From NCBI GenBank assembly GCA_011033025.1, contig WFMF01000023.1:682001-746000 (forward strand): 64,000 nt of DNA, read 5' to 3'. The translations under genes and the position numbers were made by a program. The notes under the pieces are model-generated. The model saw only the letters and a program-made list of their open reading frames with translations, was not told where the DNA came from and searched no databases. Source of the DNA: Beroe forskalii (taxonomy: Eukaryota; Ctenophora; Nuda; Beroida; Beroidae). Shown one piece after another: positions 886 to 58,400 of the stretch; within the stretch, counting starts at the first letter, position 1, and every line of letters starts with the position of its first letter.

Positions 886-2364
886 CTGGGGAGTGGGTTA
901 TTCCTTATATGGCATAATGAGACTTGGTTACAGCAGGAAATACCGTCATCAGCTTCCAAAGAACTGATTCGGAATACTCAAAATTCAAATTACTCAAAGC
1001 AAATATAAAAAGTTGAAATCATAACAAAACAGTGGCTTTAGACACTCACAAAGTTAGAAATGATGAGGGGGTCGTATCTAGCCCATGTTTTGCAGAGTTT
1101 AGCAATGTTTGCCTGGTCGACAGTCCAGTCTCGGGACATGAAGAGGTAGTCAGTGAACCACATGAACCACCCAACCACTGGCAAGTACTTCACTTCCTGC
1201 TTCACCATGCTCTTACACCCCTGAGATAAAGAACTGAGATAAACACTGAGATAAAGTACTGAGATAAAGTATACACTGAGGTAAACCATTAAATTAACAC
1301 TGAAATAATCACTAATAAACCGCGGACATTGAACTAGAGAGCACGCACTTATTCTGATGTTATCAGCTCCTTATCCAATATCCAATGATGCGATCATTAC
1401 AACAACAAAGTAAAACAAGCAGTTTGCAGAATTGAGCTTCGTGATTCGGGAACATGACTACAGCTCTACAGGAAACATTATGTTGCATTATTGGAAGGTG
1501 CTCATTTGACTGTACTCTTTTTAAATCTGCATATTATATCTAATGTACCGGGTGGTCCAAAATGTAATGTATCAAATAGTTATGACATATGTAAATTGTA
1601 ACCTTAAGACCGCCTAGCCTCTCAAGTAACACGTATCCTAGCAACCAGTCCACCTCACCACGGTGGTTCAGGACGCACAGGGCATGTTCCTTATTGAAGG
1701 AAGCCATGTCTTCAGGAGTGGCGAACAGTCTCATGTCACAGCCACAGTGCCACTCAGCCGCAAACGTGAAGACTGAAACATGAGATCATGGAACTAGGTA
1801 TTTATTACCACATTTAACACCCGGGTTCCTGTTACGAGAAAAACTCACGTTTAGTATCAGGAATAAAAGTTTACTAGTTTAGAGACATACATTTTTAATA
1901 GTGACAATTGAAGAATATAAGTCACTATGCATTGCCCATCTTTTAGTCCTGAATCATTTTGCCCCGAATATAATACTCACTCGCAACATGAGCTGTTTGA
2001 AGGTAACCATTTAGACGAGTTCCCCATTTCTCTGATAATGTTCTGACAAAGAGAAAGATCTGGAAAGGTACACTTTCTAAGGTATTGATAACACTAAAAT
2101 AATCATCCGATTAATGACCTTATCAGCTTATTATCGAAGCACAGAAAAATACAAATGATGGGGAATTTCAATTCAATGACAAAACTGTTTATAAAAGTTT
2201 CATAATATCAATCTAGTACCTTATTGATATTGACCACATAAAAAACTTACCAGTAGTTGTAAAAAGTTGACCAGGAATCCACTAAGAATATATATGTAAC
2301 TCAAAGTAGCAATAGAAATAACTGAGTGTACTTTCAACAGTTTGTGTAACATGGTTCCTGCCAT
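732..2364 (-). CDS. AGPAT: AGPAT3/4-like lysophospholipid acyltransferase, five 5' exons, 3' end outside window
   Basis: Exons 2251-2364, 1981-2059, 1603-1772, 1050-1220 and 732-885 all join in frame by GT-AG introns (phases 0,1,0,0; last donor phase 1) into about 229 residues starting MAGTMLHKLL. Family members transfer an acyl chain to lysophosphatidic acid at ER or Golgi membranes. Visible: an N-terminal hydrophobic segment (residues about 14-38), acyltransferase block I NHRGEVD (the NHx4D catalytic motif), the YLPVVGWFMWF segment, EGTRFT (substrate-binding block) and PRTKG. Order and spacing match animal AGPAT3/4. The start is the first of two nearby ATGs (the second is Met5). The C-terminal exons, expected below base 732, are not visible in bases 1-731 and are probably outside. 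AGPAT5 or an LCLAT-type paralogue is possible; family assignment is firm, subtype is inference. Confidence 0.85.
1050..1220 (-). CDS. AGPAT: AGPAT-like exon 4
   Basis: 57 codons from acceptor TTATCTCAG|GGG to donor TTT|GTGAGT. It contains VKYLPVVGWFMWFTDYLFMS, the membrane-associated segment after the catalytic motif. The acceptor motif is tandemly repeated upstream (see 1221-1287). Confidence 0.83.
1221..1287 (-). repeat. Tandem copies of the exon-4 3' splice site
   Basis: On the coding strand the acceptor TTTATCTCAG of AGPAT exon 4 occurs five times in a row upstream of the used site, at spacings of about 14-18 bases; the outermost copy is degenerate (TTTACCTCAG). Any of the copies could serve as a 3' splice site. 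Confidence 0.8.
1603..1772 (-). CDS. AGPAT: AGPAT-like exon 3 with NHx4D catalytic motif
   Basis: Acceptor TTTCAG, donor CTTAAG|GTTACA. It carries KEHALCVLNHRGEVDWLLGY, in which NHRGEVD is the His-Asp catalytic motif of glycerophospholipid acyltransferases. Confidence 0.88.
1981..2059 (-). CDS. AGPAT: AGPAT-like exon 2
   Basis: 79 bases between TTTCCAG and donor GCGA|GTGAGT (phase 1), encoding IFLFVRTLSEKWGTRLNGYL and a few more residues, matching the linker that follows the first membrane segment in the family. Confidence 0.75.
2251..2364 (-). CDS. AGPAT: AGPAT-like exon 1 (start codon and first membrane segment)
   Basis: 38 codons from ATG at 2364 to a phase-0 donor CTACTG|GTAAGT. It encodes a short basic start and a hydrophobic run ending GFLVNFLQLL, as in AGPAT3/4 N-termini. 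A Met at residue 5 could be an alternative start. Confidence 0.8.
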
Positions 2365-4497: not shown

Positions 4498-4499
4498 GA

Positions 4500-5173: not shown

Positions 5174-5179
5174 AAACGA

Positions 5180-9800: not shown

Positions 9801-10750
9801 TCGACCTTCGTAAAATCAAAATAAATCCTTGTGTTTGACTGTAGCGGTGAAACTAGCACGTGGAGTTTCGATTTTTGACGTTTTTCCCTTCTTAGGATAA
9901 CTCTCGAATGGATTGCAAAGTTTCATGAAATTATGACGAAGGAATTCGGAGATATGACCCTTGTACCAAGTCGACCTTCGTAAAATCAAAATAAATCCTT
10001 GTGTTTGACTGTAGCGGTAAAACTAGCACGTGGAGTTTCGATTTTTTGACGTTTTTCCCTTCTTAGGATCACTCTCGAATGGATTGCAAAGTTTCATGAA
10101 ATTATGACGAAGGAATTCGGAGATATGACCCTTGTATCAAGTCGACCTTCGTAAAATCAAAATAAATCCTTGTGTTTGACTGTAGCGGTGAAACTAGCAC
10201 GTGGAGTTTCGATTTTTTGACGTTTTTCCCTTCTTAGGATCACTCTTGAATGAATTGCAAAGTTTCATGAAATTATGACGAAGGAATTCGGAGATATGAC
10301 CCTTGTACCAAGTCGACCTGATCGTAAAATCAAAATAAATCCTTGTGTTTGACTGTAGCGGTAAAACTAGCACGTGGAGCTTCGATTTCTTGACGTTTTT
10401 CCCTTCTTAGGATCACTCTCGAATGGATTGCAAAGTTTCATGAAATTATGACGAAGGAATTCGGAGATATGACCCTTGTACCAAGTCGACCTTCGTAAAA
10501 TCAAAATAAATCCTTGTGTTTGACTGTAGCGGTGAAACTAGCACGTGGAGTTTCGATTTTTTGACGTTTTTCCCTTCTTAGGATAGCTCTCGAATGGATT
10601 GCAAAGTTTCATGAAATTATGACGAAGGAATTCGGAGATATGACCCTTGTACCAAGTCGACCTTCGTAAAATCAAAATAAATCCTTGTGTTTGACTGTAG
10701 CGGAAAAACTAGCACGTGGAGTTTCGATTTTTTGACGTTTTTCCCTTCAT
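6895..10750. repeat. 170-171-bp satellite array with an internal inversion
   Basis: About 22 copies of a 170-171-bp unit containing TCATATCTCCGAATTCCTTC and CATGAAACTTTGCAATCCAT. The first five to six copies run forward to about 7870; the remaining 17 or so are inverted. In the inverted block two variants recur (GTGAAACTAGC versus GTAAAACTAGC; AAAAGAAATCC versus AAAATAAATCC) at spacings near 340 and 510, suggesting a dimeric higher-order unit. Nucleosome-length units are typical of centromeric or heterochromatic satellites, but no such role is shown. Confidence 0.93.
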
Positions 10751-12475: not shown

Positions 12476-12479
12476 GCTC

Positions 12480-12909
12480 AGTTAGCCCACAGACTACCGT
12501 CTAGTAGCGGCTGTGAGCCCTCAGTTAGCCCTCAAACTACCGTCTAGTAGCGGCTGTGAGCCCTCAGTTCGCCCTCAAACTACCGTCTAGTAGCGGCTGT
12601 GAGCCCTCAGTTAGCCCTCAAACTACCGTCAAGTAGCGGCTGTGAGCCCTCAGTTCGCCCTCAAACTACCGTCTAGTAGCGGCTGTGAGCCCTCAGTTAG
12701 CCCTCAAACTACCGTCTAGTAGCGGCTGTGAGCCCTCAGTTAGCCCTCAAACTACCGTCTAGTAGCGGCTGTGAGCCCTCAGTTAGCCCTCAAACTACCG
12801 TCTAGTAGCGGCTGTGAGCCCTCAGTTAGCCCTCAAACTACCGTCAAGTAGCGGCTGTGAGCCCTCAGTTAGCCCTCAAACTACCGTCTAGTAGCGGCTG
12901 TGAGCCCTC
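12480..12909 (-). repeat. 43-bp minisatellite made from the SLC35F6-like stop-codon region
   Basis: Ten tandem 43-bp units. The unit nearest the gene is the coding sequence for the last residues (EGSQPLLDGSLRAN) plus the TGA stop; the other nine are near-perfect copies running into the 3' UTR. Internal unit differences are CTA/CAA and TTA/TTC changes. Confidence 0.92.
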
Positions 12910-13026
12910 AAAGTCCGCTGAAATCTCCGCGAATCCGGAAGCTGTGCGCGGTGAGGCGATGCACTTGATGTAGATAACCTCGTTATACAGGAGGGTGCCT
13001 ATCATGAGGAGAACAAAGCCTCCGAT
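12865..13026 (-). CDS. SLC35F6: SLC35F6-like last exon
   Basis: Acceptor CTGCAG|ATCGGA (chosen because IGGFVLLMIGTLLYN then aligns gap-free with the family) and TGA at 12865. An upstream AG at about 13043 would add YGFLQ but break the frame with the only nearby GT donor. The tail ends ADFEGSQPLLDGSLRAN, near a di-leucine. Confidence 0.8.
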   Translation of the reverse strand: MGGFVLLMIGTLLYNEVIYIKCIASPRTASGFAEISADFEGSQPLLDGSLRAN

Positions 13027-16000
13027 CTGCAGGAAACCGTACCTGGGAGGGGGGAATTCGAGTAGAGTACAACAGTTTACACTGTAGTCTATACTGATAG
13101 ACAGTGTACATTGTACATGGTAAAATGTACTGATAGACAGTTTAGTGTACACTGGGAGGGGATAACTCGAGTAGAGCACATTGCATAGTGCACACTGTAC
13201 AATGTACACTGTACTGATTGACAGTTTAGTGTACACTGGTAGGGGTAAATTCGAGTATGTAGTGTATATTGTACAGATACAACAGTGTACATTGTACTGA
13301 TAGACAGTTTAGTGTACACTGGGAGGGGATAACTCGAGTAGAGCACATTGCATACTAGCGTAGAATGAAGAATCAACCATGTACAGTATACATTGTACAT
13401 AGTATATAGAGTACATTGTACATGGTAAAATGTACAATCAACAATGTAGAGTGTACGTAGTTTAGGGTGGTGTACCCATACAGAGTTTAGTGTACATTGT
13501 ACATCCTGTTAAATAATATATTGAACAGTGTACAATGTAAGAATGTACTGGGAGGGGGGAATTCGAGCATATAGAGTACATTGTACAGTGTACAACATTG
13601 TGTACTGTACTGTGTACTCATAAACAGTGTACATTGTACAATGTACACCGTACTATATTGAACTGATCAAGTAACAAACATTAAACAACACCACCGTCTA
13701 CAGACTCATTACAGACTCACTACAGGCACTACATTGCTTTCTGATAACACTACACTCTACAGAAGGACAGATACAAGTAATCTGGTACTACATTGCATTC
13801 TAATCTACAGAGAGGTACTGACGTCATGTCAAAGGACTCCCCGTAAGAGGCGAGGATGAGGGGACACTATCAAAGGAACAGAGGACCCTATCACTAACAG
13901 GGGACACTATCAAGTTAACAGAGGACCCTATCACTAACAGGGGACACTATCAAGTTAACAGAGGACCCTATCACTAACAGGGGACACTATCAAGTTAACA
14001 GAGGACCCTATCACTAACAGGGGACACCATCAAAGTAACAGAGTACCCTATCACTAACAGGGGACACTATCAAGTTAACAGAGGACCCTATCACTAACAG
14101 GGGACACTATCAAGTTAACAGAGGACCCTATCACTAACAGGGGACACTATCAAGTTAACACAGGACCCTATCACTAACAGGGGACACTATCAAGTTAACA
14201 GAGGACCCTATCACTAACAGGGGACACTATCAAGTTAACAGAGGACCCTATCACTAACAGGGGACACTATCAAGTTAACAGAGGACCCTATCACTAACAG
14301 GGGACACTATCAAGTTAACAGAGGACCCTATCACTAACAGGGGACACTATCAAGTTAACAGAGGACCCTATCACTAACAGGGGGGACACTATCAAGTTAA
14401 CAGAGGACCCTATCACTAACAGGGGACCCTATCAAGTTAACAGAGGACCCTATCACTAACAGGGGACACTATCAAGTTAACAGAGGACCCTATCACTAAC
14501 AGGGGACACTATCAAGTTAACAGAGGACCCTATCACTAACAGGGGACACTATCAAGTTAACAGAGGACCCTATCACTAACAGGGGACACTATCAAGTTAA
14601 CAGAGGACCCTATCACTAACAGGGGACACTATCAAGTTAACAGAGGACCCTATCACTAACAGGGGACACTATCAAGTTAACAGAGGACCCTATCACTAAC
14701 AGGGGACACTATCAAGTTAACAGAGGACCCTATCACTAACAGGGGACACTATCAAGTTAACAGAGGACCCTATCACTAACAGGGGACACTATCAAGTTAA
14801 CAGAGGACCCTATCACAAACAGGGGACCCTATCAAGTTAACAGAGGACCCTATCACTAACAGGGGACACTATCAAGTTAACAGAGGACCCTATCACTAAC
14901 AGGGGACACTATCAAGTTAACAGAGGACCCTATCACTAACAGGGGACACTATCAAGTTAACAGAGGACCCTATCACTAACAGGGGACACTATCAAGTTAA
15001 CAGAGGACCCTATCACTAACAGGGGACACTATCAAGTTAACAGAGGACCCTATCACTAACAGGGGAGCGGACACTATCAAGTTAACAGAGGACCCTATCA
15101 CTAACAGGGGACACTATCAAGTTAACAGAGGACCCTATCACTAACAGGGGACACTATCAAGTTAACAGAGGACCCTATCACTAACAGGGGACACTATCAA
15201 GTTAACAGAGGACCCTATCACTAACAGGGGACACTATCAAGTTAACAGAGGACCCTATCAATAACAGGGGACACTATCAAGTTAACAGAGGACCCTATCA
15301 CTAACAGGGGACATATCAAGTTAACAGATGACTGTGTCACTAACAGGGGACCCTATCAAGTTAACAGAGGACCCTATCACTAACAGGGGACACTATCAAG
15401 TTAACAGAGGACCCTATCACTAACAGGGGACTACAAGTATCAACCCTATCACTAACAGAGGACCCTATCACTAACAGGGGACACTATCAAGTTAACAGAG
15501 GACCTATCACTAACAGGGGACACTATCAAGTTAACAGAGGACCCTATCACTAACAGGGGACACTATCAAGTTAACAGAGGACCCTATCACTAACAGGGGA
15601 CACTATCAAGTTAACAGAGGACCCTATCACTAACAGGGGACACTATCAAGTTAACAGAGGACCCTATCACTAACAGGGGACACTATCAAGTTAACAGAGG
15701 ACCCTATCACTAACAGGGGACACTATCAAGTTAACAGAGGACCCTATCACTAACAGGGGACACTATCAAGTTAACAGAGGACCCTATCACTAACAGGGGA
15801 CACTATCAAGTTAACAGAGGACCCTATCACTAACAGGGGACACTATCAAGTTAACAGAGGACCCTATCACTAACATGGGACACTATCAAGTTAACAGAGG
15901 ACCCTATCACTAACAGGGGACACTATCAAGTTAACACTTAACAGAGGACCCTATAACTAAAAGGGGACACTATCAAGTTAACAGAGGACTGTATCACTAA

Positions 16001-19000
16001 CAGGGGACACTATCAAGTTAACAGAGGACCCTATCACTAACAGGGGACACTATCAAGTTAACAGAGGACCCTATCACTAACAGGGGACACTATCAAGTTA
16101 ACAGAGGACCCTATCACTAACAGGGGACACTATCAAGTTAACAGAGGACCCTATCACTAACTGACTAACAGGGGACACTAACAAGTTAACAGAGGACCCT
16201 ATCACTAACAGGAGACACTATCAAGTTAACAGAGGACCCTATCACTAACAGGGGACACTATCAAGTTAACAGAGGACCCTATCACTAACAGGGGACACTA
16301 TCAAGTTAACAGAGGACCCTATCACTAACAGGGGACCCTATCAAGTTAACAGGGGACCCTATCACTAACAGGGGACACTATCAAGTTAACAGAGGACCCT
16401 ATCACTAACAGGGGACACTATCAAGTTAACAGAGGACCCTATCACTAACAGGGGACACTATCAAGTTAACAGAGGACCTATCACTAACAGGGGACACTAT
16501 CAAGTTAACAGAGGACCTATCACTAACAGGGACACTATCAAGTTAACAGAGGACCCTATCACTAACAGGGGACACTATCAAGTTAACAGAGGACCCTATC
16601 ACTAACAGGGGACACTATCAAGTTAACAGAGGACCCTATCACTAACAGGGGACACTATCAAGTTAACAGAGGACCCTATCACTAACAGGGGACACTATCA
16701 AGTTAACAGAGGACCTATCACTAACAGGGGACACTATCAAGTTAACAGAGGACCCTATCACTAACAGGGGACACTATCAAGTTAACAGAGGACCCTATCA
16801 CTAACAGGGGACACTATCAAGTTAACAGAGGACCCTATCACTAACAGGGGACACTATCAAGTTAACAGAGGACCCTATCACTAACAGGGGACACTTTCAA
16901 GTTAACAGAGGACCCTATCACTAACAGGGGACACTATCAAGTTAACAGAGGACCCTATCACTAACAGGGGACACTATCAAGTTAAACAGTTAACAGAGGA
17001 CCCTATCACTTACAGGGAACACCATCAAGTTAACAGAGGACCCTATCACTAACAGGGGACACTATCAAGTTAACAGAGGACCCTATCACTAACAGAGGAC
17101 ACTATCAAGTTAACAGAGGACCCTATCACTAACAGGGGACACTATCAAGGACCCTATCACTAACAGAGGACCCTATCACTAACAGGGGACCCTACTATCA
17201 AGACACTATCAACAGAGGACCCTATCACTAACAGGGGACACTATCAAGTTAACAGAGGACCCTATCACTAACAGGGGACACTATCAAGTTAACAGAGGAC
17301 CCTATCACTAACAGGGGACACTATCAAGTTAACAGAGGACCCTATCACTAACAGGGGACACTATCAAGTTAACAGAGGACCCTATCACTAACAGGGGACA
17401 CTATCAAGTTAACAGAGGACCCTATCACTAACAGGGGACACTATCAAGTTAACAGAGGACCCTATCACTAACAGGGGACACTATCAAGTTAACAGAGGAC
17501 CCTATCACTAACAGGGGACACTATCAAGTTAACAGAGGACCCTATCACTAACAGGGGACACTATCAAGTTAACAGAGGACCTATCACTAACAGGGGACAC
17601 TATCAAGTTAACAGAGGACCCTATCACTAACAGGGGACACTATCAAGTTAACAGAGGACCTATCACTAACAGGGGACACTATCAAGTTAACAGAGGACCC
17701 TATCACTAACAGGGGACACTATCAAGTTAACAGAGGACCCTATCACTAACAGGGGACACTATCAAGTTAACAGAGGACCCTATCACTAACAGGGTACACT
17801 ATCAAGTTAACAGAGGACCCTATCACTAACAGGGGACACTATCAAGTTAACAGAGGACCCTATCACTAACAGGGGACACTATCAAGTTAACAGAGGACCC
17901 TATCACTAACAGGGGACACTATCAAGTTAACAGAGGACCCTATCACTAACAGGGGACACTATCAAGTTAACAGAGGACCCTATCACTAACAGGGGACACT
18001 ATCAAGTTAACAGAGGACCCTATCACTAACAGGGGACACTATCAAGTTAACAGAGGACCCTATCACTAACAGGGGACACTATCAAGTTAACAGAGGACCC
18101 TATCACTAACAGGGGACACTATCAAGTTAACAGAGGACCTATCACTAACAGGGGACACTATCAAGTTAACAGAGGACCCTATCACTAACAGGGGACACTA
18201 TCAAGTTAACAGAGGACCCTATCACTAACAGGGGACACTATCAAGTTAACAGAGGACCCTATCACTAACAGGGGACACTATCAAGTTAACAGAGGACCCT
18301 ATCACTAACAGGGGACACTATCAAGTTAACAGAGGACCCTATCACTAACAGGGGACACTATCAAGTTAACAGAGGACCCTATCACTAACAGGGGACACTA
18401 TCAAGTTAACAAGGGACCCTATCACTAACAGGGGACACTATCAAGTTAACAGAGGACCCTATCAAGTATCACTAACAGGGGACACTATCAAGTTAACAGA
18501 GGACCCTATCACTAACAGGGGACACTATCAAGTTAACAGAGGACCCTATCACTAACAGGGGACACTATCAAGTTAACAGAGGACCCTATCACTAACAGGG
18601 GACACTATCAAGTTAACAGAGGACCCTATCACTAACAGGGGACACTATCAAGTTAACAGAGGACCCTATCACTAACAGGGGACACTATCAAGTTAACAGA
18701 GGACCCTATCACTAACAGGGGACACTATCAAGTTAACAGAGGACCCTATCACTAACAGGGACACTATCAAGTTAACAGAGGACCCTATCACTAACAGGGG
18801 ACACTATCAAGTTAACAGAGGACCCTCACTACTAACAGGGGACACTATCAAGTTAACAGAGACCTATCACTAACAGGGGACACTATCAAGTTAACAGAGG
18901 ACCCTATCACTAACAGGGGACACTATCAAGTTAACAGAGGACCCTATCACTAACAGGGGACACTATCAAGTTAACAAAGGACCCAATCACTAACAGGGGA

Positions 19001-22000
19001 CACTATCAAGTTAACAGAGGACCCTATCACTAACAGGACACTATCAAGGAGGACCCTATCACTAACAGGGACACTATCAAGTTAACAGGACCCTATCACT
19101 AACAGGGGACACTATCAAGTTAACAGAGGACCCTATCACTAACAGGGGACACTATCAAGTTAACAGAGGACCCTATCACTAACAGGGGACACTATCAAGT
19201 TAACAGAGGACCCTATCACTAACAGGGGACACTATCAAGTTAACAGAGGACCCTATCACTAACAGGGGACACTATCAAGTTAACAGAGGACCCTATCACT
19301 AACAGGGGACACTATCAAGTTAACAGAGGACCCTATCACTAACAGGGGACACTATCAAGTTAACAGAGGACCCTATCACTAACAGGGGACACTATCAAGT
19401 TAACAGAGGACCCTATCACTAACAGGGGACACTATCAAGTTAACAGAGGACCCTATCACTAACAGGGGACACTATCAAGTTAACAGAGGACCCTATCACT
19501 AACAGGGGACACTATCAAGTTAACAGAGGACCCTATCACTAACAGGGGACACTATCAAACAGAGGACCCTATAAACAGAGGACCCTATCACTAACAGGGG
19601 ACCCTATCACTAACAGGGGAACAGTTAACAGGGACCCTATCACTAACAGGGGACACTATCAAGTTAACAGAGGACCCTATCACTAACAGGGGACACTATC
19701 AAGTTAACAGAGGACCCTATCACTAACAGGGGACACTATCAAGTTAACAGAGGACCCTATCAGTAACAGGGGACACTATCAAGTTAACAGAGGACCCTAT
19801 CACTAACAGGGGACACTATCAAGTTAACAGAGAACCCTATCACTAACAGTGGACACTATCAAGTTAACAGAGGACCCTATCACTAACAAAGGACACTATC
19901 AAGTTAACAGAGGACCCTATCACTAACAGGGTACACTATCAAGTTAACAGAGGACCCTATCACTAACAGGGGACACTATCAAGTTAACAGAGAACCCCTA
20001 TCACTAACAGGGGACACTATCAACACTATCAAGTAACAGAGGACCCTATCACTAACAGGGGACACTATCAAGTTAAACAGTTAACAGAGGACCCTATCAC
20101 TAACAGGGGACACTATCAAGTTAACAGAGGACCCTATCACTAACAGGGGACACTATCAAGTTAACAGAGGACCCTATCACTAACAGGAGACACTATCAAG
20201 TAAACAGGAACCCTATCACTAACAGGGGACACTATCAAGTTAACAGAGGACCCTATCACTAACAGGGGACACTATCAAGTTAACAGAGGACCGTATCACT
20301 AACAGGGGACCATATCAAGTTAACAGAGGACCCTATCACTAACAGGGGACACTATCAAGTTAACAGAGGACCCTATCACTAACAGGGGACACTATCAAGT
20401 TAACAGAGGACCCTATCACTAACAGGGGACACTATCAAGTTAACAGAGGACCCTATCACTAACAGGGGACACTATCAAGTTAACAGAGGACCCTATCACT
20501 AACAGGGGACACTATCAAGTTAACAGAGGACCCTATCACTAACAGGGGACACAATCAAGTTAACAGAGGACCTATCACTAACAGGGGACACTATCAAGTT
20601 AACAAAGGACCCTATCACTAACAGGGGACACTATCAAGTTAACAGGACCCTATCACTAACAGGGGACACTATCTATCAAGTTAACAGGGGACCCTATCAC
20701 TAACAGGGGACACTATCAAGTTAACAGAGGACCCTATCACTAACAGGGGACACTATCAAGTTAACAGAGGACCCTATCACTAACAGGGGACACTATCAAG
20801 TTAACAGAGGACCCGTATCATGACTAACAGGGGACACTATCAAGTTAACAGAGGACCCTATCACTAACAGGGGACACTATCAAGTTAACAGAGGACCCTA
20901 TCACTAACAGGGGACACTATCAAGTTAACAGAGGACCCTATCACTAACAGGGGACACTATCAAGTTAACAGAGGACCTATCACTAACAGGGGACACTATC
21001 AAGTTAACAGAGGACCCTATCACTAACAGGGGACACTATCAAGTTAACAGAGGACCCTATCACTAACAGGGGACACTATCAAGTTAACAGAGGACCCTCC
21101 CACTAACAGGGGACACTATCAAGTTAACAGAGGACCCTATCACTAACAGGGGACACTATCAAGTTAACAGAGGACCCTATCACTAACAGGGGACACTATC
21201 AAGTTAACAGAGGACCCTATCACTAACAGGGGACTATCAAGTTAACAGAGGACCCTATCACTAACAGGGGACACTATCAAGTTAACAGAGGACCCTATCA
21301 CTAACAGTGGACACTATCAAGTTAACAGAGGACCCTATCACTAACAGGGGACACTATCAAGTTAACAGAGGACCTTATCACTAACAGGGGACACTATCAA
21401 GTTAACAGAGGACCCTATCACTAACAGGGGACACTATCAAGGGGACCTATCACTCAAACAGGGGACACTATCAAGTTAACAGAGGACCCTATCACTAACA
21501 GGGGACACTATCAAGTTAACAGAGGACCTATCACTAACAGAGGACCTATCACTAACAGGGGACACTATCAAGTTAACAGAGGACCCTATCACTAACAGGG
21601 GACACTCTCAAGTTAACAGAGGACCCTATCACTAACAGGGGACCCTATCAAGTTAACAGAGGACACTATCAAGTTAACAAAGGGCCCTATCACTAACAGA
21701 GGACCCTATCACTAACAGGGGACACTATCAAGTTAACAGAGGACCCTATCACTAACAGGGGACACTATCAAGTTAACAGAGGACCCTATCACTAACAGGG
21801 GACACTATCAAGTTAACAGAGGACCCTATCACTAACAGGGGACACTATCAAGTTAACAGAGGACCCTATCAGTAACAGGGGACACTATCAAGTTAACAGA
21901 GGACCCTATCATAACGGGGGAAACTATCAAGTTAACAGAGGACCCTTTCACTAACAGGGGACACTATCAAGTTAACAGAGGACCTATCACTAACAGGGGA

Positions 22001-44339: not shown

Positions 44340-46360
44340 CAGAGAGATGGAATCTAGTGGTGGTCGGGAAAATAGGAATTAGGAAATGGAGGCATAAAAT
44401 ATTCCGTCTCTAAAATTGGAAATAAAACACCGAAACTAACTTCAGAGACAAGCGAAATGAGGGTATCAAGTAAAGCCCATTTCAGTGACTTGTATTCCCA
44501 CATTTCTGAATAATAGAGATAAGAGCATGTTACCTGATATCATTCTTACGTCTGAACACTGGACATGTGATTTGGAAATACGTGTTTTTAATAACATCTG
44601 AGAAAGTTGCTAGTGGCATAATGGGGCATTGCTTGTTCCAGTTAATATGAAACTTGGCATTCGTGGCCCCTAAGGTTCAAGAACTGGGCAAAGGGCCTTC
44701 CATAATCAAATTAACGGAGTATAAATGATTTGGCATTGGTGGAATATAAAATGATGAAGAGACAAAAAAGTTCCCCAAGAGACAAAATCGCCAAAAAAAC
44801 GCTGACTAAGAACTGTAAAGAAGAAAAACTCTGGTGTTCATTAACATAGGTGTATGTGAGTATTTAACAGACTATCACCAAAGATAATATACATAAATTA
44901 ACACTATAACTTTATAATGATTATTGACACGGATATGTGACGTATAGCTAAGTCCAAACGCTGTATTAAGGTGCCTCAGTTTATTGCAAGGGCATGAAAC
45001 TATCGAGAAATATTGAGTTTAAAACCCCTTCCAGTAATACAGTCTAGACATCTATCATCCAAGCTAAGTTGTCATTACGAAACATTTAACAATTCATGAA
45101 AGCAAGTTCTGACCCACCATCTGAGTAAAAATATAATATCGTAAAAACCAGTGATATATTTCACTCTAAAGGATATTTCCTTGCGTTTATTAAATTTAAA
45201 TAACTGCCTTCAAGGCAGCTATGAAATATAATAATTAATATTAAACTGCTGCTAGCGATAAGACTTATCAAACAATTTTAAAACAAATCATGATATTTTT
45301 ACATATAAAAGCATGCAATCTGTTTTTACATCATAAAATGAGTCACAAAAGGCAAAAGCACTGTGTCAATTATATCAAATACTGTTCACAGAGAAAAGAA
45401 ATAAAGATCGGATAGACCTCAGTTGACAAATCGAGCTCCGAGCAATTAACAACATGCGGTTGAAAATAAACATCAACATCACAGTTAAATGTTAAATTGA
45501 TTAAATGGAACATTTTACAATTCAAGAGCGACTAAAATACGTCATATATTTGTATAGCAAGGGAGTGACGAACCCCTAGTTGCGCGGCTTTTCCGTGCGC
45601 GGCTCACTGCCTGTCATTAATAATAATAGCTGGTGAGCCGCGCACGGGAAAGTCGCGTACATACTCCTGGGAGTTCGACACGCCACCGTAAGTGACCAAT
45701 CCTTGCCCTATAAATTGTCTGACTTGCAGTGTCTGTATCATGCAGTGAGAATAAAAATGTAAAATATTTCTTGTCAAAATGCAATTACGATTTAAGTAAA
45801 ACAGAAAATATCAATATCACTTATACGAGCGACTGACAACTGTTTCACTGATAACGTTAGCTGATTCAATATTTAAGTGCATGTAAAACTGTAAAAGCTT
45901 TTCCAATCCGAAATGGAAACAAGAAATGCGACTCGTTTGATAGAAATGCTACCTCGAGAGAAAAGCGTCTTTTTAGGTTACTTATGCTTGAAATATTCTG
46001 CCTTGAGGGACCTGTATAACTGATAAGTGGAATATACACATACAGCGAATGATGTGGGGCAGAGGCTTTCCAAAAGCTATTTCCATTGTAAGCAGCCTTC
46101 AGCTGCTGACTGCAGTGATGTCAAATGTCAGAGTGAAAGTGGGGAGATGGCTCAATCGGTAAAGCAGCTGTTCCAGCATACAGACAGGTGTGGGTTCAAG
46201 TCCCTCTCATTTTCAGTTCATCTGAGTTTGCGTGTGGGTAGGGAATCATCGAGTGTCCGCTAGAGAAAGTGACACCATCAAATTAGAGCTGGTCAAAGTG
46301 AAATCATCAGAATTTTCAGCTTGTGAAAGTGACATCATCAGACGTCAGCAAGTGACATCA
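44340..46360. other. No protein gene recognised
   Basis: TRAIP-like 5' flank and TRPC-like 3' flank. Contains an inverted repeat at 45585-45658 (GCGCGGCTTTTCCGTGCGCG arms around a 25-base spacer) and a tRNA-like element near 46139. Confidence 0.5.
46139..46215 (+). repeat. tRNA-derived (SINE-like) element
   Basis: A box TGGCTCAATCGG and B box GGTTCAAGTCC, correctly ordered with about 36 bases between, match RNA polymerase III internal promoters. The cloverleaf is imperfect and the acceptor stem does not pair fully, so it is a SINE head or decayed tRNA rather than a tRNA gene. Confidence 0.45.
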
Positions 46361-46493
46361 TCAGATGTCAGAGAATCTTCCGCCAGTGGACGAACTCTCC
46401 CCTGAACTAGGACTCTTCCTGCCTAGCACAGTATCCCGGTTGCTAGGCAACGTATCCCGGGAAGTCTCCAGCAGCTTACTCAACCCCAGCATC
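46361..46493 (-). CDS. TRPC: TRPC-like last exon
   Basis: Acceptor ATTTCAG|GATG, phase 2, ending at TGA (46361). A Ser-rich tail: LGLSKLLETSRDTLPSNRDT, then GRKSPSSGESSSTGGRFSDI. Confidence 0.65.
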
Positions 46494-49400
46494 CTGAAAT
46501 GTGAGGGAGATTGAGTTATGGAAGGTAGTCTACTCGTGATCAGAATGAGTTACTAATGAGTTTCTGGGTTTGCAACATTTCAGCTTATCTATATGAGCGG
46601 AGTTATGGGAGTTAGTTTAACGAGTAACCGTAAGAGGATTTGATGAACACTGCAATTGGAACGTCGAATGTCGAGAAGAGAAAACAAGAACATCGAATAT
46701 AAGAAATCAACCTAGATATTCAACTAGATATTCAACCAATTTTCCGCTTTAAACATAAACAGTTAGCACATGAAGCCCGCAAGTTCACCTGTCGTTCTGT
46801 TCAGCCAGCAGAGTATTGTTCTTCTCCCCATCGTCCACCAGACTCTTCACTTGGGTCTGGAGTGTTGCCAAGTTGTCCTGGAGACCCACAAAGCTCTTCC
46901 AGACCGCCTGCAGGGCGTCCAACTTGATACCCTCAGAATCTAACTTAGCGTAGAGCTTGTAGAGGTCTTCTCTCATTGTCATGATTGCCTGGGAGGGGTT
47001 ACCGGGGGTGAGAAAGGGTTGGGAGGGGTTACCGGGGAGTGAGGGAGGAATTGGGGGTAAAAAAGATAATGAGATGTTACCGGGGAGTGTGAAAGGGTTG
47101 ACAACAAGTAGAGAAACTAGAAAGCTAGTCCCTGATATTTCCTTTGGATTTTTCGAATGTATAGGAATGATTACAGCTCCCCAATACACCTTCCAAACGG
47201 GTAAGGGTGCTAAACGAGCCGATGATATTTTCTTAAGAATACAGTGCAAGTGATAAAGTTAATAAATCCAAGAAATAACGGCTGACCGACTACCCAACAT
47301 TCTTAGTGCTTACAGAATGAGCTTTCTAAATACCTCGAAAGAGTCCATCTCCTCGTTCCTCTGCTGGGTTGGTTTGAGGCGGCTGCACACTCTGCTGACA
47401 ATGTCCTGCTTGTCATGGAGGGAGGTGTTGTGGAGCAGGTTATACTCGCTGTCTCCCCACACAACCTGCTTTATTCCCTGGAGATGATTAGATTAAGGAT
47501 TAAGAGATGATAAGATAACGGGAGGGGGGGGGGGTGGGAGTGGGGGGTGGGAGGGGGATGGAGGAGGGGGTGGGGGTGGGTGGGAGGGGGGAGTGGGGGG
47601 AGGTGGAAGGGGGGAGGGAGGGAGGGGGTGGAAGGGAGGGGAGGGGGAGGGGGAGGGGGAGGGGGAGGTGGAAGGTGGGAGGGGGGTGGGGGTGGGTGGG
47701 AGGGGGGGAGTGGGGGGAGTGGTGTCCCCCAAAACTACCGGCTTTAGTCCCTGAGGAAGAAGGATTAGGAGATGATAAGACAAGAAATAGATAAGGAGAT
47801 GATAACACATTAAACAACCGGGGGGGGGGGGCAGCGAGTGGTCAGGTACAAGGTTTACAAGGTTTATAAGGTTACAAGGTTTACAAGGTTTTACAAGGTT
47901 TACAAGGTTTTACAAGGTTTACAAGGTACAATTACTCACCTTTTTGCAGGGGCTGCAGACGCAGCATTTGCAGAACAGAGCTAGAGGCCAGGTGAGGATG
48001 TTGAATGGCGGAGGGATGGGGTGGTTTGCCTCGTGCATCATCACCAGCTTCATGGTGGAGCACCGCTTCTCTGTCTCACACGCCTTCCGGGATGTCGTTA
48101 CTTTTCCTGGAGAAGATGAAACTCAGACTTGAAGTTTAACCAAGCTGGCAGCATCGAGTTTAATTAGCGATGTTTGAAATGCCATTACAACAAACAAAGT
48201 ATGAGCAAAGCATATTATTCTCAAGATAAAAAATTAACTATTCCTCTCACCAAAGCACGATATTGTAAAAGAGATGAGAGTGAGGAAGGAGAGGAGGAGG
48301 AATATGATGAAGAGGAGTTGCCCGGCAATGTTTCCTGCTGCGTCATTTCCAGGAGAGGAAACCACTCTGTCCAGGGACAGGAAGAGAACCGTAAACACTG
48401 TCAGAGCACTGGGAATGAGTGTTGTCAATAAAGAGTGGTGCCAAAACGGAGTGGTGTCAATACAGAGTGGTGTCAATACAAAGTGGTGTCAAAACGGAGT
48501 GGTGTCAATACAGTGTGGTGTCAAGGCGGAGTGGTTTCAAGGTGGAGTGGTGTCAATACAGAGTGGTGTCAAAACGGAGTGGTGTCAGTACAGAGTGGTG
48601 TCAAAACGGAGTGGCGTCAATACGGGGTGGTGTCAGACCATTGGGAATGAGTGGTGTCAGTACAGAGTGGTGTCAATAAAGAGTGGCGTCAATACGGGGT
48701 GGTGTCAGACCATTGGGAATAAGTGGTGTCAATACAGAGTGGTGTCAAAACGGAGTGGTGTCAAAACGGAGTGGTGTCAATACAGAGTGGTTTCAAGGCG
48801 GAGTGGTTTCAAGGTGGAGTGGGGTCAAGGTGGAGTGGTGTCAATATGGAGTGGTGTCAAAACAAAGCGGTGTCAAAACAAAGCGGTGTCAAAACAAAGT
48901 GGTGTCAAAACAAAGTGGTGTCAATAGCAAAGTGGTGTCAAAACAAAGCGGTGTCAAAACAAAGTGGTGTCAAAACAAAGTGGTGTCAAAACAAAGCGGT
49001 GTCAAAACAACGTTGCAAACCCTAACCTGTTCTTCTGCGGGGCAGTTGACAGGTAGACCGTGTGAATAGCTACATTGAACACGACATAGAGGAAGCCCAG
49101 AACCCCAAGGTAAGAGCAGAAGTCAGGGATCAGCTTCTCGATAACGTTCAGTGGGTTGTAGGGGATCAGGGGACGGACTATGGACAGAAACCGGACGGAG
49201 AGGGTGATCAGGAGAACTCCTGGGAGAGGGAGATTTAATTCATGACAGGTGTTTTATCGGAATGAAGCAATCAGAGCGACAGAGCATACCGTATATGGAA
49301 ATGAACTAATCAGAACTTACCTTATATGGAAATGAACCAATCAAACTTACCATATATGGAAATGAACCAATCAAACTTACCATATATGGAAATGAACCAA

Positions 49401-52400
49401 CCAAAACTTACCATATATGGAAATGAACCCATCACAACTTACCATATATGGAAATGTCTATCAAGTTAACAGAGGACCCTATCGCTAACAGGGGACACTA
49501 TCAAGTTAACAGAGGACCCTATCACTAACAGGGGACACTATCAAGTTAACAGAGGACCCTATCGCTAACAGGGGACACTATCAAGTTAACAGAGGACCCT
49601 ATCACTAACAGGGGACACTATCAAGTTAACAGAGGACCCTATCACTAACAGGGGACACTATCAAGTTAACAGAGGACCCTATCACTAACAGGGGACACCA
49701 TCAAGTTAACAGAGGACCCTATCACTAACAGGGGACACAATCAAATTAACAGAGGACCCTATCACTAACAAGGGACACTATCAAGTTAACAGAGGACCCT
49801 ATCACTAACAGGTCGCACTTTCAAGTTAACAGAGGACCCTATCACTAACAGAGGACACTATAAAGTTAACAGATGACTCTATCACTAACAGGGGACACTA
49901 TCAAGTTAACAGAGGACCCTATCACTAACAGGGGACACTATCAAGTTAACAGAGGACCCTATCACTAACAACAGGGACACTATCAAGTTAACAGAGGACC
50001 CTATCACTAACAGGGGACACTATCAAGTTAACAGAGGACCCTATCACTAACAGGGGACACTATCAAAGTTAACAGAGGACCCTATCACTAACAGGGGACA
50101 CTATCAAGTTAACAGAGGACCCTATCACTAACAGGGGACACTATCAAGTTAACAGAGGACCCTATCACTAACAGGGGACACTATCAAGTTAACAGAGGAC
50201 CCTATCACTAACAGGGGACACTATCAAGTTAACAGAGGACCCTATCACTAACAGGGGACACTATCAAGTTAACAGAGGACCCTATCACTAACAGGGACCC
50301 TATCAAGTTAACAGAGGACCCTATCACTAACAGGGGACACTATCAAGTTAACAGAGGACCCTATCACTAACAGGGACACTATCAAGTTAAAAGGGACCCT
50401 ATCACTAACAGGGGACACTATCAAGTTAACAGAGGACCCTATCACTAACAGGGGACACTATCAAGTTAACAGAGGACCCTATCACTAACAGGGACACTAT
50501 CAAGTTAACAGAGGACCCTATCACTAACAGGGGACACTATCAAGTTAACAGAGGACCCTATCACTAACAGGGGACACTATCAAGTTAACAGAGGACCCTA
50601 TCACTAACAGGGGACACTATCAAGTTAACAGAGGACCCTATCACTAACAGGGACACTATCAAGTTAACAGAGGACCCTATCGCTAACAGGGGACACTATC
50701 AAGTTAACAGAGGACCCCTGCCACTAACAGGGGACACTATCAAGTTAACAGAGGACCCTATCACTAACAGGGGACACTATCAAGTTAACAGAGGACCCTA
50801 TCACTAACAGGGGACACTATCAAGTTAACAGAGGACCCTACTCAACAGGGGACACTATCAAGTTAACAGAGGACCCTATCACTAACAGGGGACACTATCA
50901 AGTTAACAGAGGACCCTATCACTAACAGGGGACACTATCAAGTTAACAGAGGACCCTATCACTAACAGGGGACACTATCAAGTTAACAGAGGACCCTATC
51001 ACTAACAGGGGACACTATCAAGTTAACAGAGGACCCTATCACTAACAGGGGACACTATCAAGTTAACAGAGGACCCTATCACTAACAGGGGACACTATCA
51101 AGTTAACAGAGGACCCTATCACCAACAGGGGACACTATCAAGTTAACAGAGGACCCTATCACTAACAGGGGACACTATCAAGTTAACAGAGGACCCTATC
51201 ACTAACAGGGGACACTATCAAGTTAACAGAGGACCCTATCACTAACAGGGGACACTATCAAGTTAACAGAGGACCCTATCACTAACAGGGGACACTATCA
51301 AGTTAACAGAGGACCCTATCACTAACAGGGGACACTATCAAGTTAACAGAGGACCCTATCACTAACAGGGGACACTATCAAGTTAACAGAGGACCCTATC
51401 ACTAACAGGGGACACTATCAAGTTAACAGAGGACCCTATCACTAACAGGGGACACTATCAAGTTAACAGAGGACCCTATCACTAACAGGGGACACTATCA
51501 AGTTAACAGAGGACCCTATCACTAACAGGGGACACTATCAAGTTAACAGAGGACCCTATCACTAACAGGGGACACTATCAAGTTAACAGAGGACCCTATC
51601 ACTAACAGGGGACACTATCAAGTTAACAGAGGACCCTATCACTAACAGGGGACACTATCAAGTTAACAGAGGACCCTATCACTAACAGGGGACACTATCA
51701 AGTTAACAGAGGACCCTATCACTAACAGGGGACACTATCACTAACAGGGGACACTATCAAGTTAACAGAGGACCCTATCACTAACAGGGGACACTATCAA
51801 GTTAACAGAGGACCCTATCACTAACAGGGGACACTATCAAGTTAACAGAGGACCCTATCACTAACAGGGGACACTATCAAGTTAACAGAGGACCCTATCA
51901 CTAACAGGGGACACTATCAAGTTAACAGAGGACCCTATCACTAACAGGGACACTATCAAGTTAACAGAGGACCCTATCACTAACAGGGGACACTATCAAG
52001 TTAACAGAGGACCTATCACTAACAGGGGACACTATCAAGTTAACAGAGGACCCTATCACTAACAGGGGACACTATCAAGTTAACAGAGGACCCTATCACT
52101 AACAGGGGAACCTATCAAGTTAACAGAGGACCCTATCACTAACAGGGGACACTATCAAGTTAACAGAGGACCCTATCACTAACAGGGGACACTATCAAGT
52201 TAACAGAGGACCCTATCACTAACAGGGGACACTATCAAGTTAACAGAGGACCCTATCACTAACAGGGGACACTATCAAGTTAACAGAGGACCCTATCACT
52301 AACAGGGGACACTATCAAGTTAACAGAGGACCCTATCACTAACAGGGGACACTATCAAGTTAACAGAGGACCCTATCACTAACAGGGGACACTATCAAGT

Positions 52401-55400
52401 TAACAGAGGACCCTATCACTAACAGGGGACACTATCAAGTTAACAGAGGACCCTATCACTAACAGGGGACACTATCAAGTTAACAGAGGACCCTATCACT
52501 AACAGGGGACACTATCAAGTTAACAGAGGACCCTATCACTAACAGGGGACACTATCAAGTTAACAGAGGACCCTATCACTAACAGGGGACACTATCAAGT
52601 TAACAGAGGACCCTATCACTAACAGGGGACACTATCAAGTTAACAGAGGACCCTATCACTAACAGGGGACACTATCAAGTTAACAGAGGACCCTATCACT
52701 AACAGGGGACACTATCAAGTTAACAGAGGACCCTATCACTAACAGGGGACACTATCAAGTTAACAGAGGACCCTATCACTAACAGGGGACACTATCAAGT
52801 TAACAGAGGACCCTATCACTAACAGGGGACACTATCAAGTTAACAGAGGACCCTATCACTAACAGGGGACACTATCAAGTTAACAGAGGACCCTATCACT
52901 AACAGGGGACACTATCAAGTTAACAGAGGACCCTATCACTAACAGGGGACACTATCAAGTTAACAGAGGACCCTATCACTAACAGGGGACACTATCAAGT
53001 TAACAGAGGACCCTATCACTAACAGGGGACACTATCAAGTTAACAGAGGACCCTATCACTAACAGGGGACACTATCAAGTTAACAGAGGACCCTATCACT
53101 AACAGGGGACACTATCAAGTTAACAGAGGACCCTATCACTAACAGGGGACACTATCAAGTTAACAGAGGACCCTATCACTAACAGGGGACACTATCAAGT
53201 TAACAGAGGACCCTATCACTAACAGGGGACACTATCAAGTTAACAGAGGACCCTATCACTAACAGGGGACACTATCAAGTTAACAGAGACCCTATCACTA
53301 ACAGGGGACACTATCAAGTTAACAGAGGACCCTATCACTAACAGGGGACACTATCAAGTTAACAGAGGACCCATCACAACTTACCATACCAGTTAACAGA
53401 GGACCCTATCACTAACAGGGGACACTATAAAGTTAACAGAGGACCCTATCACTAACAGGGGACACTATCATTGAAATGAACCCATCACAACTTACCATAT
53501 ATGGAAATGAACCAATCAAAACTTACCATATATGGAAATGAACCAATCAAAACTTACCATATATGGAAATGAACCAATCAAAACTTACCATATATGGAAA
53601 TGAACCAATCAAAACTTACCATATTATATGGAAATGAACCAATCACAACTGACCATACATGGAAATGAACCAATCAAAACAAACCATGAACATATATGGA
53701 AATGAACAAATCAAACTTACCATATACCTGGGGAAATGTCATAATCAAAGGGTTAAATAGACTGAACAAACATACCATATATGATCTGGGGCGTAATCCT
53801 TCCCATTCTTAATTAATCATGCGTGTCTTTCAGCAGGAGAACACTAATCAGCCATGTGAACAGCAGAATGTCACACACGAACCTGAACTGGTAGTACCAG
53901 ACGATGACGTCATTATCAGGGGTTAGAGTGGGGAGTTGTTGACGTAATATTGGGGCAGGGGCGTTGATGAGAACACTGCTTATGGGGGGTTAGGAGTGGG
54001 GCGTTGATGATTATCAGGTTATAGAATAAGTCTTAAGTCACCAGGACGTTGTAGCCTTCTGAGGGGGTTGATCCAAAACAGTGACTGTTGATGACTACCA
54101 GAGGGGCCAAACGCCAGCGCTAACTTAGATTGTACGTTACACTGTCAGGGTGTTCAAGAAATTGCTACATAGAACTCCAAACGTGAAAACTTATCGCTGC
54201 TAATGAAAAACTGAAAAGATAAACTGCCGCTATAAATTCTCCTCTCAAACATGCTCCAAATTCGTTACCAGAACCCCAAACCAGTTACAGAATATCAACT
54301 AAGATGATGAAGAAGCATTTTGCAATACTAAATGATGAAAAGTCCCATTTTGAATCAGATAAAAGTTATTCAAACAGCTGTTCGTTTCATGACATACCAG
54401 TCTACAGAATATCAACTAAGATGATGAAGAAGCATGTTGCAATACTATACTATTTCATTATTTCACATGCGCCAGTAAATCTTAAACACCTTATCATTGC
54501 ACCTTATCTTTACAGCACCATATCTAAAACAACATCAGGAAGATGGCACCACACTCATGAAAATGAAATGTAAATCATACCTGAGAAATGATGCGGACCT
54601 GAAGAAATAATGAGGAAGAGTAGGACAGCAGTATATCACCTGGAAGGGGAAAACTGCGAAGGGGGAGTAGATGGAGTGACCTGAAGGAAGTTGGAGTTTT
54701 GCTGGGAAAACCTGAAATAAAGTACCAATGACCAATTATGCAGTGGATAATCCTTCGATGGCATGAAACTACCAAGAAGCAATTCGTTCCTCCAAAATTT
54801 CAAAAATATTCTCAATATTTTCAATCCTGAAAAATCTACAGATCCATGTCTTAAGGGTTAAAAACTCACATGAACTTTCTGAGGGGTGAGTCTCGTCTGG
54901 CACCGCAGAGGATATAGCTGACTACGGAGAGGAAGGGAAGGAGGAAGGGGGAGATCAAGGAGAGGAAAATATCTCCTGAAAATGGGGTGGTGTCAGGGTT
55001 GGGTGGTGTCAGGGTTGGGTGGTGTCACGGTGGAGTGGTGTCAGGAAGTAGTGGTGTCAGGGTGGAGTGTTGTCAAGATTGGGTGGTGTCAGGAAGGAGT
55101 GATGTCAAGATGGTGTGGTGTCAGGAAGGAGGGGTGTAAAGGTTGGGTGGTGTCAGGAGTGGTGTCAGCATGAAGTGGTGTCAGCGCAGAGTGGTGTCAG
55201 TTCCCTACATACCTGGCTGAGCTCTGCCCGTTTTTGAGCGTGTGATCCTCTGTTGGAGGAGTCTGTAAGTGGCTGGATGGGACACGAACTCATTCCTCCC
55301 GTAGTACAGAGCGTCATGGATTGGGGCTGACTGCCGGGAGGGGGCGTGGTCACGGCACATCACTGCACTTACCTGAGGATGTTTAGTAATGTTAAGAAGG

Positions 55401-58400
55401 GGCGTGGTCACGGCAATCACCGCACTCACCTAGGGATGTTTAGTCATGTTAAAAGGGGGCGTGGTCACGCCGTCACGGCACATCACCGCACTCACCTAGG
55501 GATGTTTAGTCATGTTAAAAGGGGGCGTGGTCACGGCACATCACTGCACTTACCTGGGGATGTTTAGTCATGTTAAAAGGGGGCGTGGTCTCGGGACATC
55601 ACCGCGCTTACCTAGTGATGTTTGGTCATGTTTAAAGGGGCGTGGTCACGGCACATCACCGCGCTCACCTAGTGATGTTTAGTCATGTTAAAAGGGGCGT
55701 GGTCTCGAGACATCACCGCGCTCACCTAGGGATGTTTAGTCATTTTAAAAGGGGGCGTGGTCACGGCACATCACCGCGCTTACCTGGGATGTTTAGTCAT
55801 GTTAAAAGGGGCGTGGTCACGGCACATCACCGCGCTCACCTAGTGATGTTTAGTCATGTTAAAAGGGGCGTGGTCACGGGACATCACTGCGCTCACCTAG
55901 GAAGAGGGTTATGTTGCCTAACACGCTTTGTGATTACTTAAAATTTAGCTTACCTCTTGTGGAGAGAGGCACTGGTCTATGAGGTGAACTGAGAATCTCT
56001 CACAGGCCGTACCAAGGCGTTCCCAGTGCGAGGCTAGGGAGGTTCTGACACACGCCAAGAGCCGGAATGCCCGACCTGAGAGGGTTGCTAAGTGAGAGAG
56101 GAGTTGCTAAGGAGAGAGGGGGTTGCTAGGGAGGGGGTTGCTTGGTGAGAGAGGGGGTTGCTAAGGAGGGGGTTGCTAAGGAAGGAGTTACTAAAGAGGG
56201 GGTTGCTGAGGAGGGGGTTGCTTAGGAGTGGGTTGCTAAGGAGGGGGTTGCTAAGGAGGGGTTGCTAAGGAGGGGGTTGCTAAGGAGGGGGTTGCTAAGG
56301 AGTCGGAATGCCTGGGGGGGGGGTGAAGAAACAGCCAATGGGAACAAGGCGTGATTATAGCCAATGAAAATCAAGCATTCCAACCATATGAGACTCTCAA
56401 CCAATAAGGATGAAGTGCAATATTTATTATCCAATAAGAACAAAGAACCCTGTCTCTTACCCAATAGGAAAGCTGTTTCCAGGGGAGCAGGAGTGAGAAT
56501 GAGGATCTGCTGGGATATCAGCCTCCACAGGGCTTGCACGTCAGGGTCCCGGGACTCCACGACATTTACTGTATTACCTGCGAGTAAAGGTGTCAAAACG
56601 GAGATCAGTCAACATGAAAATAGAAGGATTGTTACTAAGGACAAGGAGAACAAATAAAACAAGAAAAAGGATGCTTTCAGAAAAATTAACGAAGCAAATT
56701 TCGGTCGAAAGTCGAAGACGTCTCCAGATACTCCTACAGAGGATATCTATCATTCAGTTTCCTTCAATAATCCTCCTAATCATGTAATCCCCAGTTCCTC
56801 TCATCCACCCAATCTGAACCTTTTGAACCCTGATCTGAACCACATAATTTCTATCACTTGGGGCCTCTAACCCACATTATCTGACCCTTTTGAACCTTGA
56901 TCTAAACCCCCTAATCTGACGCCCCTGAGCCCTCTAACCCATTAATCTGACATCCCTGTACCCACCTAATCTGACGCCCAGCATGCGAGCCAGTCTGACA
57001 TCCGTGCACCCTGCTAGTCGCATGAGCGCCTCCCCGACATCAGCCCCCTGAGACACCAGGTACTCAGCCACATCCATCCTGTCAACTCGTAGGGCGCAGG
57101 AGAGCGGGCAGTCTGCTCGAGCACACATGGGGCGAGGGCGTTGCTATGAGGTTGCTAGGGAGGGGTTGCTAGGAGGGGATTGCTAGAGGGGTTCTAGGGA
57201 CGGGGTTGCTAGGGAGGCGGTTGCTAGTTAGGAGGTTGCTGGGGAGAGAGAGGGTTGCTGGGGAGAGGGGGTTGCTTAGGGGGGGGGTTGCTAGGAAAGG
57301 TTGCTAGGGGAGGGGTTGCTAAGGAGGGGGTACTAGGAGGTTGCTAGGGAGGGGGTTGCTAGGGGGGTTTCTAGGGAGGGAGGGGGTTGCTTAGGAGGAG
57401 GCTGCCCCATACTCACATGTTATCAGAGATGCCATTAGGACTGTTAACGCTCGCCCCAGCCTCCACCAGAAGTCTGACACACTCCGGGTTACCGCCCAGG
57501 ATGGCGGAAACAATGGGGGATATGATCACGTGGGGTTCCGGGATACGGACACTGTCCTGCGGGGAGGAGAGGGTAACGAGAATAAGAAACAAGAATTGCG
57601 CCTGCCGGCGTATTTCTTGAGCCCGTTTTCCCGTATGCAGGCGCTTAATTTCCTGTTCCCTGGGGCTTGGTACACAAACACGCCGTCATTTGATCTACGA
57701 CCATTGTCCGTCTTATTTACTGACATGGTGCGTTGACTATAAACTTATATGACCTCCAAAATCAAGGTACAATCGCGTTTGTACACCGACGAGAATTGAG
57801 AGAAAGAGGTTTTCTTTAATAGAAATAAGAGTTATCTTAAATAATTTTCCGTGATAAAACGCTTCTTCTATCAACTTCAAGTGTCACATGAAGACATGAT
57901 AGTCACAACTCACATCACAATACTAACATCATTGAATAAGTTTCATTAAATATTCCTTGTTATGCACGGGCGCTATATAGTACATTTCCTTCTACAAATT
58001 TGAATTAACGCGCGCAGATCTGAATATCACGTGGGCGATTTCGTTTCACGTGCCAAATGTTTGCGCGCGCGTTCCCGCCATTTCATAGAACTCTTTCAAG
58101 ATTTGTTTAGTTGCGCGCTTTTGAGAGTTTCATAACTTTGATCAACATTTTCGTTACGCGTTACATTTCTTTTGTGTGGTGTTGCAGATTTCAAACCATT
58201 GTAATGTTCGATATTATTGTGCCCCGCCTTGATAATTTCAAGATTGAGATACACAGTATGATTACTGACCAAGATAAAAGATTCAGATATATCATTATTA
58301 TCAATCACGAACCGAGACAAACTCGAAAATGTTTTACTTTTCTCAAGTCAATTCTTTAGATCATTCGTTACTGATTGCACAAATACTGCCCATTGTAAAT

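Follow-up and report, generated by a model that had tools for sequence, protein, structure and literature searches.

Here, we describe minisatellite arrays in the introns of AGPAT-like, SLC35F6-like and TRPC-like genes encoded in a 64,000-nucleotide stretch of DNA from the ctenophore Beroe forskalii (NCBI GenBank assembly GCA_011033025.1, contig WFMF01000023.1, positions 682,001 to 746,000; hereafter, the window, whose own numbering is used throughout). Some of the array units contain the acceptor or donor site of the adjoining exon. We regard these arrays as mirage minisatellites, that is, local tandem duplications that arise at essentially random places and are tolerated, known in kind and found here in a new host, and we put the probability of this reading at roughly 0.8. 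Copies of splice junctions exist in the window, yet the junctions are less repeated than the rest of the introns, and in 77 introns sampled from genes of four families, arrays straddle junctions at or below the frequency given by random placement.

The genome is represented by a 216-Mb (megabase) draft assembly of 1134 contigs. Exon models of the three genes, all on the minus strand, were built from reading frame and splice consensus, and the arrays at junctions and stop codons described below are given on that strand. The SLC35F6-like model is supported by 49 homologues, the top-ranked of which is 53% identical to the query across 98% of its length, and its exons are also backed by tblastn using 8 of the homologues; the names AGPAT-like and TRPC-like are presumptive. 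In total, 48 junctions (25 donors and 23 acceptors) were modelled in these three genes, after omission of exon edges that could not be placed, namely the acceptor of TRPC-like exon 1, the donor and acceptor of exon 3, the acceptor of exon 5 and the edges of exon 10, along with the SLC35F6-like exon edges at both ends of an array of a 40-base-pair (bp) unit.

Junction copies in the window

A 24-base segment laid over each junction was compared with the junction's own intron (up to 800 bases), and a match of at least 17/24 was taken as a near copy. Five of the 48 junctions have one: the acceptors of SLC35F6-like exons 5 and 6, the acceptors of TRPC-like exons 12 and 15, and the donor of TRPC-like exon 5. 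Four further junctions reach exactly 16/24 (the last SLC35F6-like acceptor, the TRPC-like exon 14 acceptor, the exon 6 donor and the exon 2 acceptor, the last with a low-complexity match), a score near chance, the best among 40 places elsewhere in the window often being 15–16. For the remaining 39 junctions, several of which adjoin arrays, no copy at 16/24 or better was found in the own intron within the same 800 bases, and scores of only 10–14/24 were obtained at array-adjoining sites such as the acceptors of TRPC-like exons 7 and 9, the donors of exons 8, 11 and 13, and the donors of SLC35F6-like exons 1, 2 and 5. An earlier account of this DNA, here called the sequence-only reading, held that introns of these genes are lengthened by copies of their own junctions and counted at least eight such junctions; near copies bear this out at five junctions and not at the 39, and the count of eight is reached only if partial copies are admitted.

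The controls place these numbers in proportion. Among segments from exon interiors, 1 of 48 has a near copy at 17/24, and this one comes from SLC35F6-like exon 6, which is itself duplicated; among segments from intron interiors of the window, 109 of 240 do. Repetition being much commoner in intron interiors, the junctions of the window are not favoured.

The clearest case of junction copying is a 20-bp array, TTTTCAG|GTGAAATGTTGCT, at positions 24383..24614, the unit of which comprises the acceptor of SLC35F6-like exon 5 and 13 coding bases (24/24). It consists of 10 decoys and the copy assigned to use, with AG intact in all, and the 18-base core of the unit has seven exact matches in the genome, all seven within its own intron. 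In the same gene, exon 6 with its acceptor is accompanied by an extra copy (22683..23100; 20/24), scored once at 22840–22875, with a more degenerate copy near 23080 judged by eye. The acceptor of the last SLC35F6-like exon is preceded by four copies (13041..13567; 16/24) that reproduce its 20 intron bases, lie partly within an 84-bp array and keep AG in all four. Similarly, a 13-bp array of TTTATCTCAG lies upstream of an AGPAT-like exon (1221..1271; acceptor 1220/1221; 15/24), with no coding bases copied and AG kept in 3/3 decoys. Thus, at the AGPAT-like acceptor at 1220 and at the last SLC35F6-like acceptor, the intron side alone is copied.

In the TRPC-like gene, the exon 12 acceptor is copied in a 16-bp array of the TGACACCACTC family (48417..49009; 21/24), in which two decoys, at 48631–48653 and 48703–48725, carry the acceptor and about 10 coding bases, with AG changed to AA in both. 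The exon 15 acceptor has one upstream copy (46986..47034; 17/24), in which AG is lost, and the exon 5 donor is surrounded by degenerate repeats (56797..57025; 18/24) comprising five copies, one exonic and four intronic, two of the five retaining GT. A 57-bp array in the intron between exons 7 and 8 (55341..55901) is built of units with AG|GTGAGC or AG|GTAAGC; its origin as copies of that intron's own junctions was ruled out, the score being 13/24 for each.

Arrays also run over stop codons. The SLC35F6-like gene closes with a 43-bp array (12477..12910), the unit of which includes the stop codon together with some 38 coding bases; the gene uses the first copy, and the stop is kept in all nine further copies. 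At the end of the TRPC-like gene, an array covers the last codons and the stop codon (46266..46371), with two scored copies that both keep the stop. Since arrays lie over two stop codons, splicing is not the target. Arrays thus end at both kinds of coding boundary, which suggests that selection acts against copies within coding sequence rather than that splicing is the cause.

Arrays in other genes and their placement

Junction-bearing units were found in genes outside the window as well. In a kinesin gene (C212), a 36-bp unit includes 10–24 coding bases and the donor; in a myosin gene (C225), a 34-bp unit includes the acceptor and 6 coding bases; and of two CCT paralogues on C558, copy A has a 31-bp unit with the acceptor and 2 exon bases, and copy B a 37-bp unit with 12 coding bases and the donor. 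These two paralogues are nearly identical over 40 exon bases on each side of four introns and differ by whole junction units: donor units in one intron number one in A and three in B, and acceptor units in another number four in A and one in B, the single-copy form presumably being the older state of each intron. Three junction-bearing units, including that of SLC35F6-like exon 5, were searched for exact matches and proved confined, or almost confined, to the gene that carries them (7/7, 4/4 and 4/5 matches in the own gene, 15/16 in total). A mobile acceptor unit shared by the CCT and myosin genes, both of which contain CCTCGTGTTTCAG, was considered and rejected, the exact 16-mer tested having 4/5 of its matches in one gene.

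To sample introns more broadly, genome searches were made by family, yielding 120 kinesin, 45 CCT, 110 ion-channel and 78 myosin matches. Of these, 159 were taken and 157 were usable, giving 90 neighbouring exon pairs, from which 77 introns were called (13 were uncalled), with a median length of 235 bases. Near copies at 17/24 in the same intron were found for 4/77 donors and 4/77 acceptors, where comparison with the other introns of the sample predicted 0.0 and 0.1, respectively. The controls gave 1/154 for exon interiors and 8/77 for mid-intron segments versus 8/154 for junctions, a comparison that favours the mid-intron count, because mid-intron segments were searched on both sides and junction segments on one. 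In a 20-base profile, the repeated share is 0–1.3% deep in exons, 3.9% at both junctions, 0–3.9% across the first 56 intron bases behind donors and 8–13% from 24 bases before acceptors inward, with no repeat peak at the junctions of the 77 introns.

The placement of whole arrays was compared with a null model in which the founding unit is placed at random in the collapsed intron, and an array is considered to straddle a junction when at least 2 exon bases extend over it. Among 25 non-overlapping arrays, three straddle a junction, or four with the kinesin C212 array, which was scored as non-straddling because its best row begins inside the intron (other rows reach 10–24 exon bases); random placement predicts 4.6 ± 1.7. 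Straddling in the 77 introns is therefore at or below random placement, and the overlap between arrays and junctions above chance that the sequence-only reading led one to expect is absent from this sample. As to the genome-wide habit that it proposed, the same kind of array does occur in kinesin, myosin and CCT genes, at a frequency that random placement would suffice to produce.

Other repeats of the window have wider distributions. The 40-bp unit builds the two largest arrays of the window, an 8.4-kilobase (kb) array in the SLC35F6-like gene (13859..22250, no strand assigned) and one in the TRPC-like gene (49458–53470). One 41-base variant of this unit has 26 exact matches over 14 contigs, only 1 of the 26 in the window; the two arrays are therefore a dispersed satellite, which rules out their derivation from SLC35F6-like junctions. 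The TRPC-like copy, about 4 kb long, splits a 31-bp array (49287..53726, no strand assigned), and GAAATG stands on both flanks of the insert (49450–53480), which may be a target-site duplication or merely the period of the host array. Between SLC35F6-like exon 6 and the last exons, at 13859–22578, about 50 residues conserved in the homologues have no exon that was found; either the sequence is absent from the assembly or the gene may be broken. The 16-bp family, with the core GTGGTGTCA, forms separate arrays at 48417–49009, 54982–55200 and 63691–63831, and recurs in the myosin intron of C225. A 171-bp satellite forms two arrays in opposite orientation, at 6910–7871 and 7876–10752. Among the sampled loci, a kinesin gene (C291:171201-174881) contains repeated exons, one exon being matched three times and the following one four times with a spacing of about 800 bases between several of the matches, and five myosin exon matches at C173:212858-215434 share one open frame of 881 residues, although one lists internal stops, such that some introns between these matches may be stop-free.

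Origin of the arrays

We propose that a short segment of a gene is duplicated in tandem at an essentially random place, a mutational step that would be followed by growth through slippage or unequal exchange. If the original segment spans an exon-intron edge, its copies would accumulate on the intron side, because selection would remove copies from coding sequence while splicing would keep the copy joined to the exon. The outcome would be a lengthened intron full of decoy sites that the spliceosome disregards. Such arrays would be frequent in the window because the window is rich in minisatellites, and their presence at junctions is expected because introns here are short.

The decoys are consistent with this scheme. 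Across 11 splice arrays, 41 decoys were scored, 34 of which retain AG or GT; use of 27 of these 34 would put the reading out of frame, and a kinesin decoy donor leads into an in-frame TAG. When exons are joined at the exon-attached site, the protein is open and looks conserved in all six introns displayed, with the joined sequences SKLTRLLQ|DSLGG in kinesin and DIAGFEIFD|FNSFEQ in myosin, which we take to be conserved motifs of these proteins, so the exon-attached copy is probably the site used.

Several observations weigh against random, tolerated duplication, in addition to the unequal search of mid-intron and junction segments mentioned above. Seven of the 34 intact decoys would preserve the frame. 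Tandem repeats make up 39% of the window but 6.2% of a 240,290-base sample of other gene loci, such that arrays are far denser in the window and the difference may be local. At 77 introns, obtained from 90 candidate pairs, the sample is small, and it comes from conserved families only; its introns were called by frame and consensus with weak calls retained, and a few derive from close paralogues and hence are non-independent; copy numbers might be wrong, the assembly being a draft. The repeated share at the donor (3.9%) is about that of the first 56 intron bases, with no dip, unlike what a strict avoidance model would give. Finally, direct repeats of at least 10 bases that span the junctions were found in 3 of the 77 introns, compared with 0.03 expected from mispaired introns.

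This last excess speaks for a different explanation, in which tandem duplication is directed to, or favoured at, splice junctions (AG|GT) and introns generally lengthen or originate by this route. With a threshold of 7 bases, such repeats occur in 8/77 introns against 1.7 expected; one intron of a CCT gene (C2) has the same 15 bases on both sides, and its joined exons read SQDAEVGDGTT; and junction copies are present in several unrelated genes. However, one gene accounts for two of the three long direct repeats, a direct repeat of at least 8 bases was found in 0 of 20 window introns, the sample shows no excess of junction copies over intron interiors or random placement, and the stop-codon arrays indicate that splicing is not needed. 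Directed duplication thus appears unlikely, and the sequence-only reading's notion of a genome-wide habit, taken as one aimed at junctions, is not supported, given the same stop-codon arrays, the lack of a copy at most modelled junctions and the dispersal of the 40-bp arrays; intron creation by AG|GT duplication, which that reading cited as proposed and shown in isolated cases, can be seen in a minority at most, the three sampled introns.

Two introns of the C2 CCT gene, which have direct repeats of 15 and 11 bases extending over their splice sites, are candidates for intron gain by duplication of an AG|GT-bearing segment, although a target-site duplication made by an insertion would look alike. 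With these repeats as a suggestive case, we tentatively raise the rather doubtful idea that minisatellites form in this lineage at such a rate that duplications across junctions keep supplying longer and, occasionally, new introns. If this were true, comparisons among paralogues, alleles or closely related species would allow intron birth through AG|GT duplication to be observed.

A role of the arrays in recursive or regulated splicing, with AG|GT units used stepwise or controlling exon choice, is quite improbable. Units such as TTTTCAG|GTGAAA and CCTAG|GTGAGC do place an acceptor-like site directly against a donor-like one, leaving no room for an exon, but AG is lost in some decoys (2/2 at TRPC-like exon 12 and 1/1 at exon 15), and copy number varies between paralogues. 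Least probable of all is a spread of the repeats as mobile, introner-like elements with their own splice sites, for which the dispersal of the 40-bp unit (26 exact matches of the 41-base variant over 14 contigs) and the recurrence of the 16-bp family in several places could be cited, but 15/16 exact matches of the three junction-bearing units lie in their own genes, and the same sequence serving as introns at many loci was not found for these units by exact search.

Comparison with known systems

Mirages were described in amphioxus as minisatellite-like tandem duplications of exon-intron boundaries in Adh3, the globin genes BflGb6 and BflGb9, troponin C and PGBD5; according to these reports, the units measure 10–160 bp, many contain AG or GT, copy number is variable, regular splicing is reported, and a model of intron gain from mirages has already been published (PMC3087553, PMC3902484). 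As judged from DNA, the Beroe arrays share four features with these accounts. Units extend across the boundary with coding bases (SLC35F6-like exon 5, kinesin C212, CCT C558 copy B and others); both boundaries are hit, donors in C212, C558 copy B and TRPC-like exon 5, and acceptors in SLC35F6-like exon 5, C225 and C558 copy A; AG or GT is kept in many units, here in 34/41 decoys; and length is unstable, among haplotypes in amphioxus and between the CCT paralogues here. The AGPAT-like array and the copies at the last SLC35F6-like acceptor, confined to the intron side, depart from the boundary-spanning character of mirages so described. Beyond the different animal, the present case differs in that arrays span stop codons too, that placement was tested against a random expectation, and that regular splicing was reported in amphioxus, whereas the present evidence comes from DNA. 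The host is probably not a lancelet on protein similarity either: no lancelet is present among the 120 CCT-beta matches listed of 4040, in which the nearest are 11 unnamed proteins at 87–92% identity; the best full-length identity among the named ones listed is 74%, and one partial crustacean record has a higher bit score (752) at 67% over 69%.

The model of Rogers, in which an intron is gained through tandem duplication of an AGGT-bearing segment, has been related to potato RdRp, vertebrate ATP2A1 and fission-yeast genes (PMC4974935). The present case resembles it in the duplication across AG|GT and in the direct repeats that bracket the two C2 CCT introns at their splice sites; unlike in that model, the introns of the window pre-exist and grow. 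A study of human duplicated genes (PMC2812944) describes minisatellites that differ between recent paralogues and that, at exon-intron boundaries, may give rise to novel introns. In that study, coding sequence contains half of the variable repeats, whereas here the scored copies are intronic or follow the stop codon, with the exception of one TRPC-like exon copy.

Taken with the amphioxus cases, the Beroe arrays suggest that mirage minisatellites extend beyond amphioxus, and the CCT paralogues of C558 provide a pair in which mirage growth can be followed. Random placement in short introns sets the bar for any claim that junctions are hot spots, and the arrays raise for splicing the question of how the correct site is chosen among many near-identical ones.

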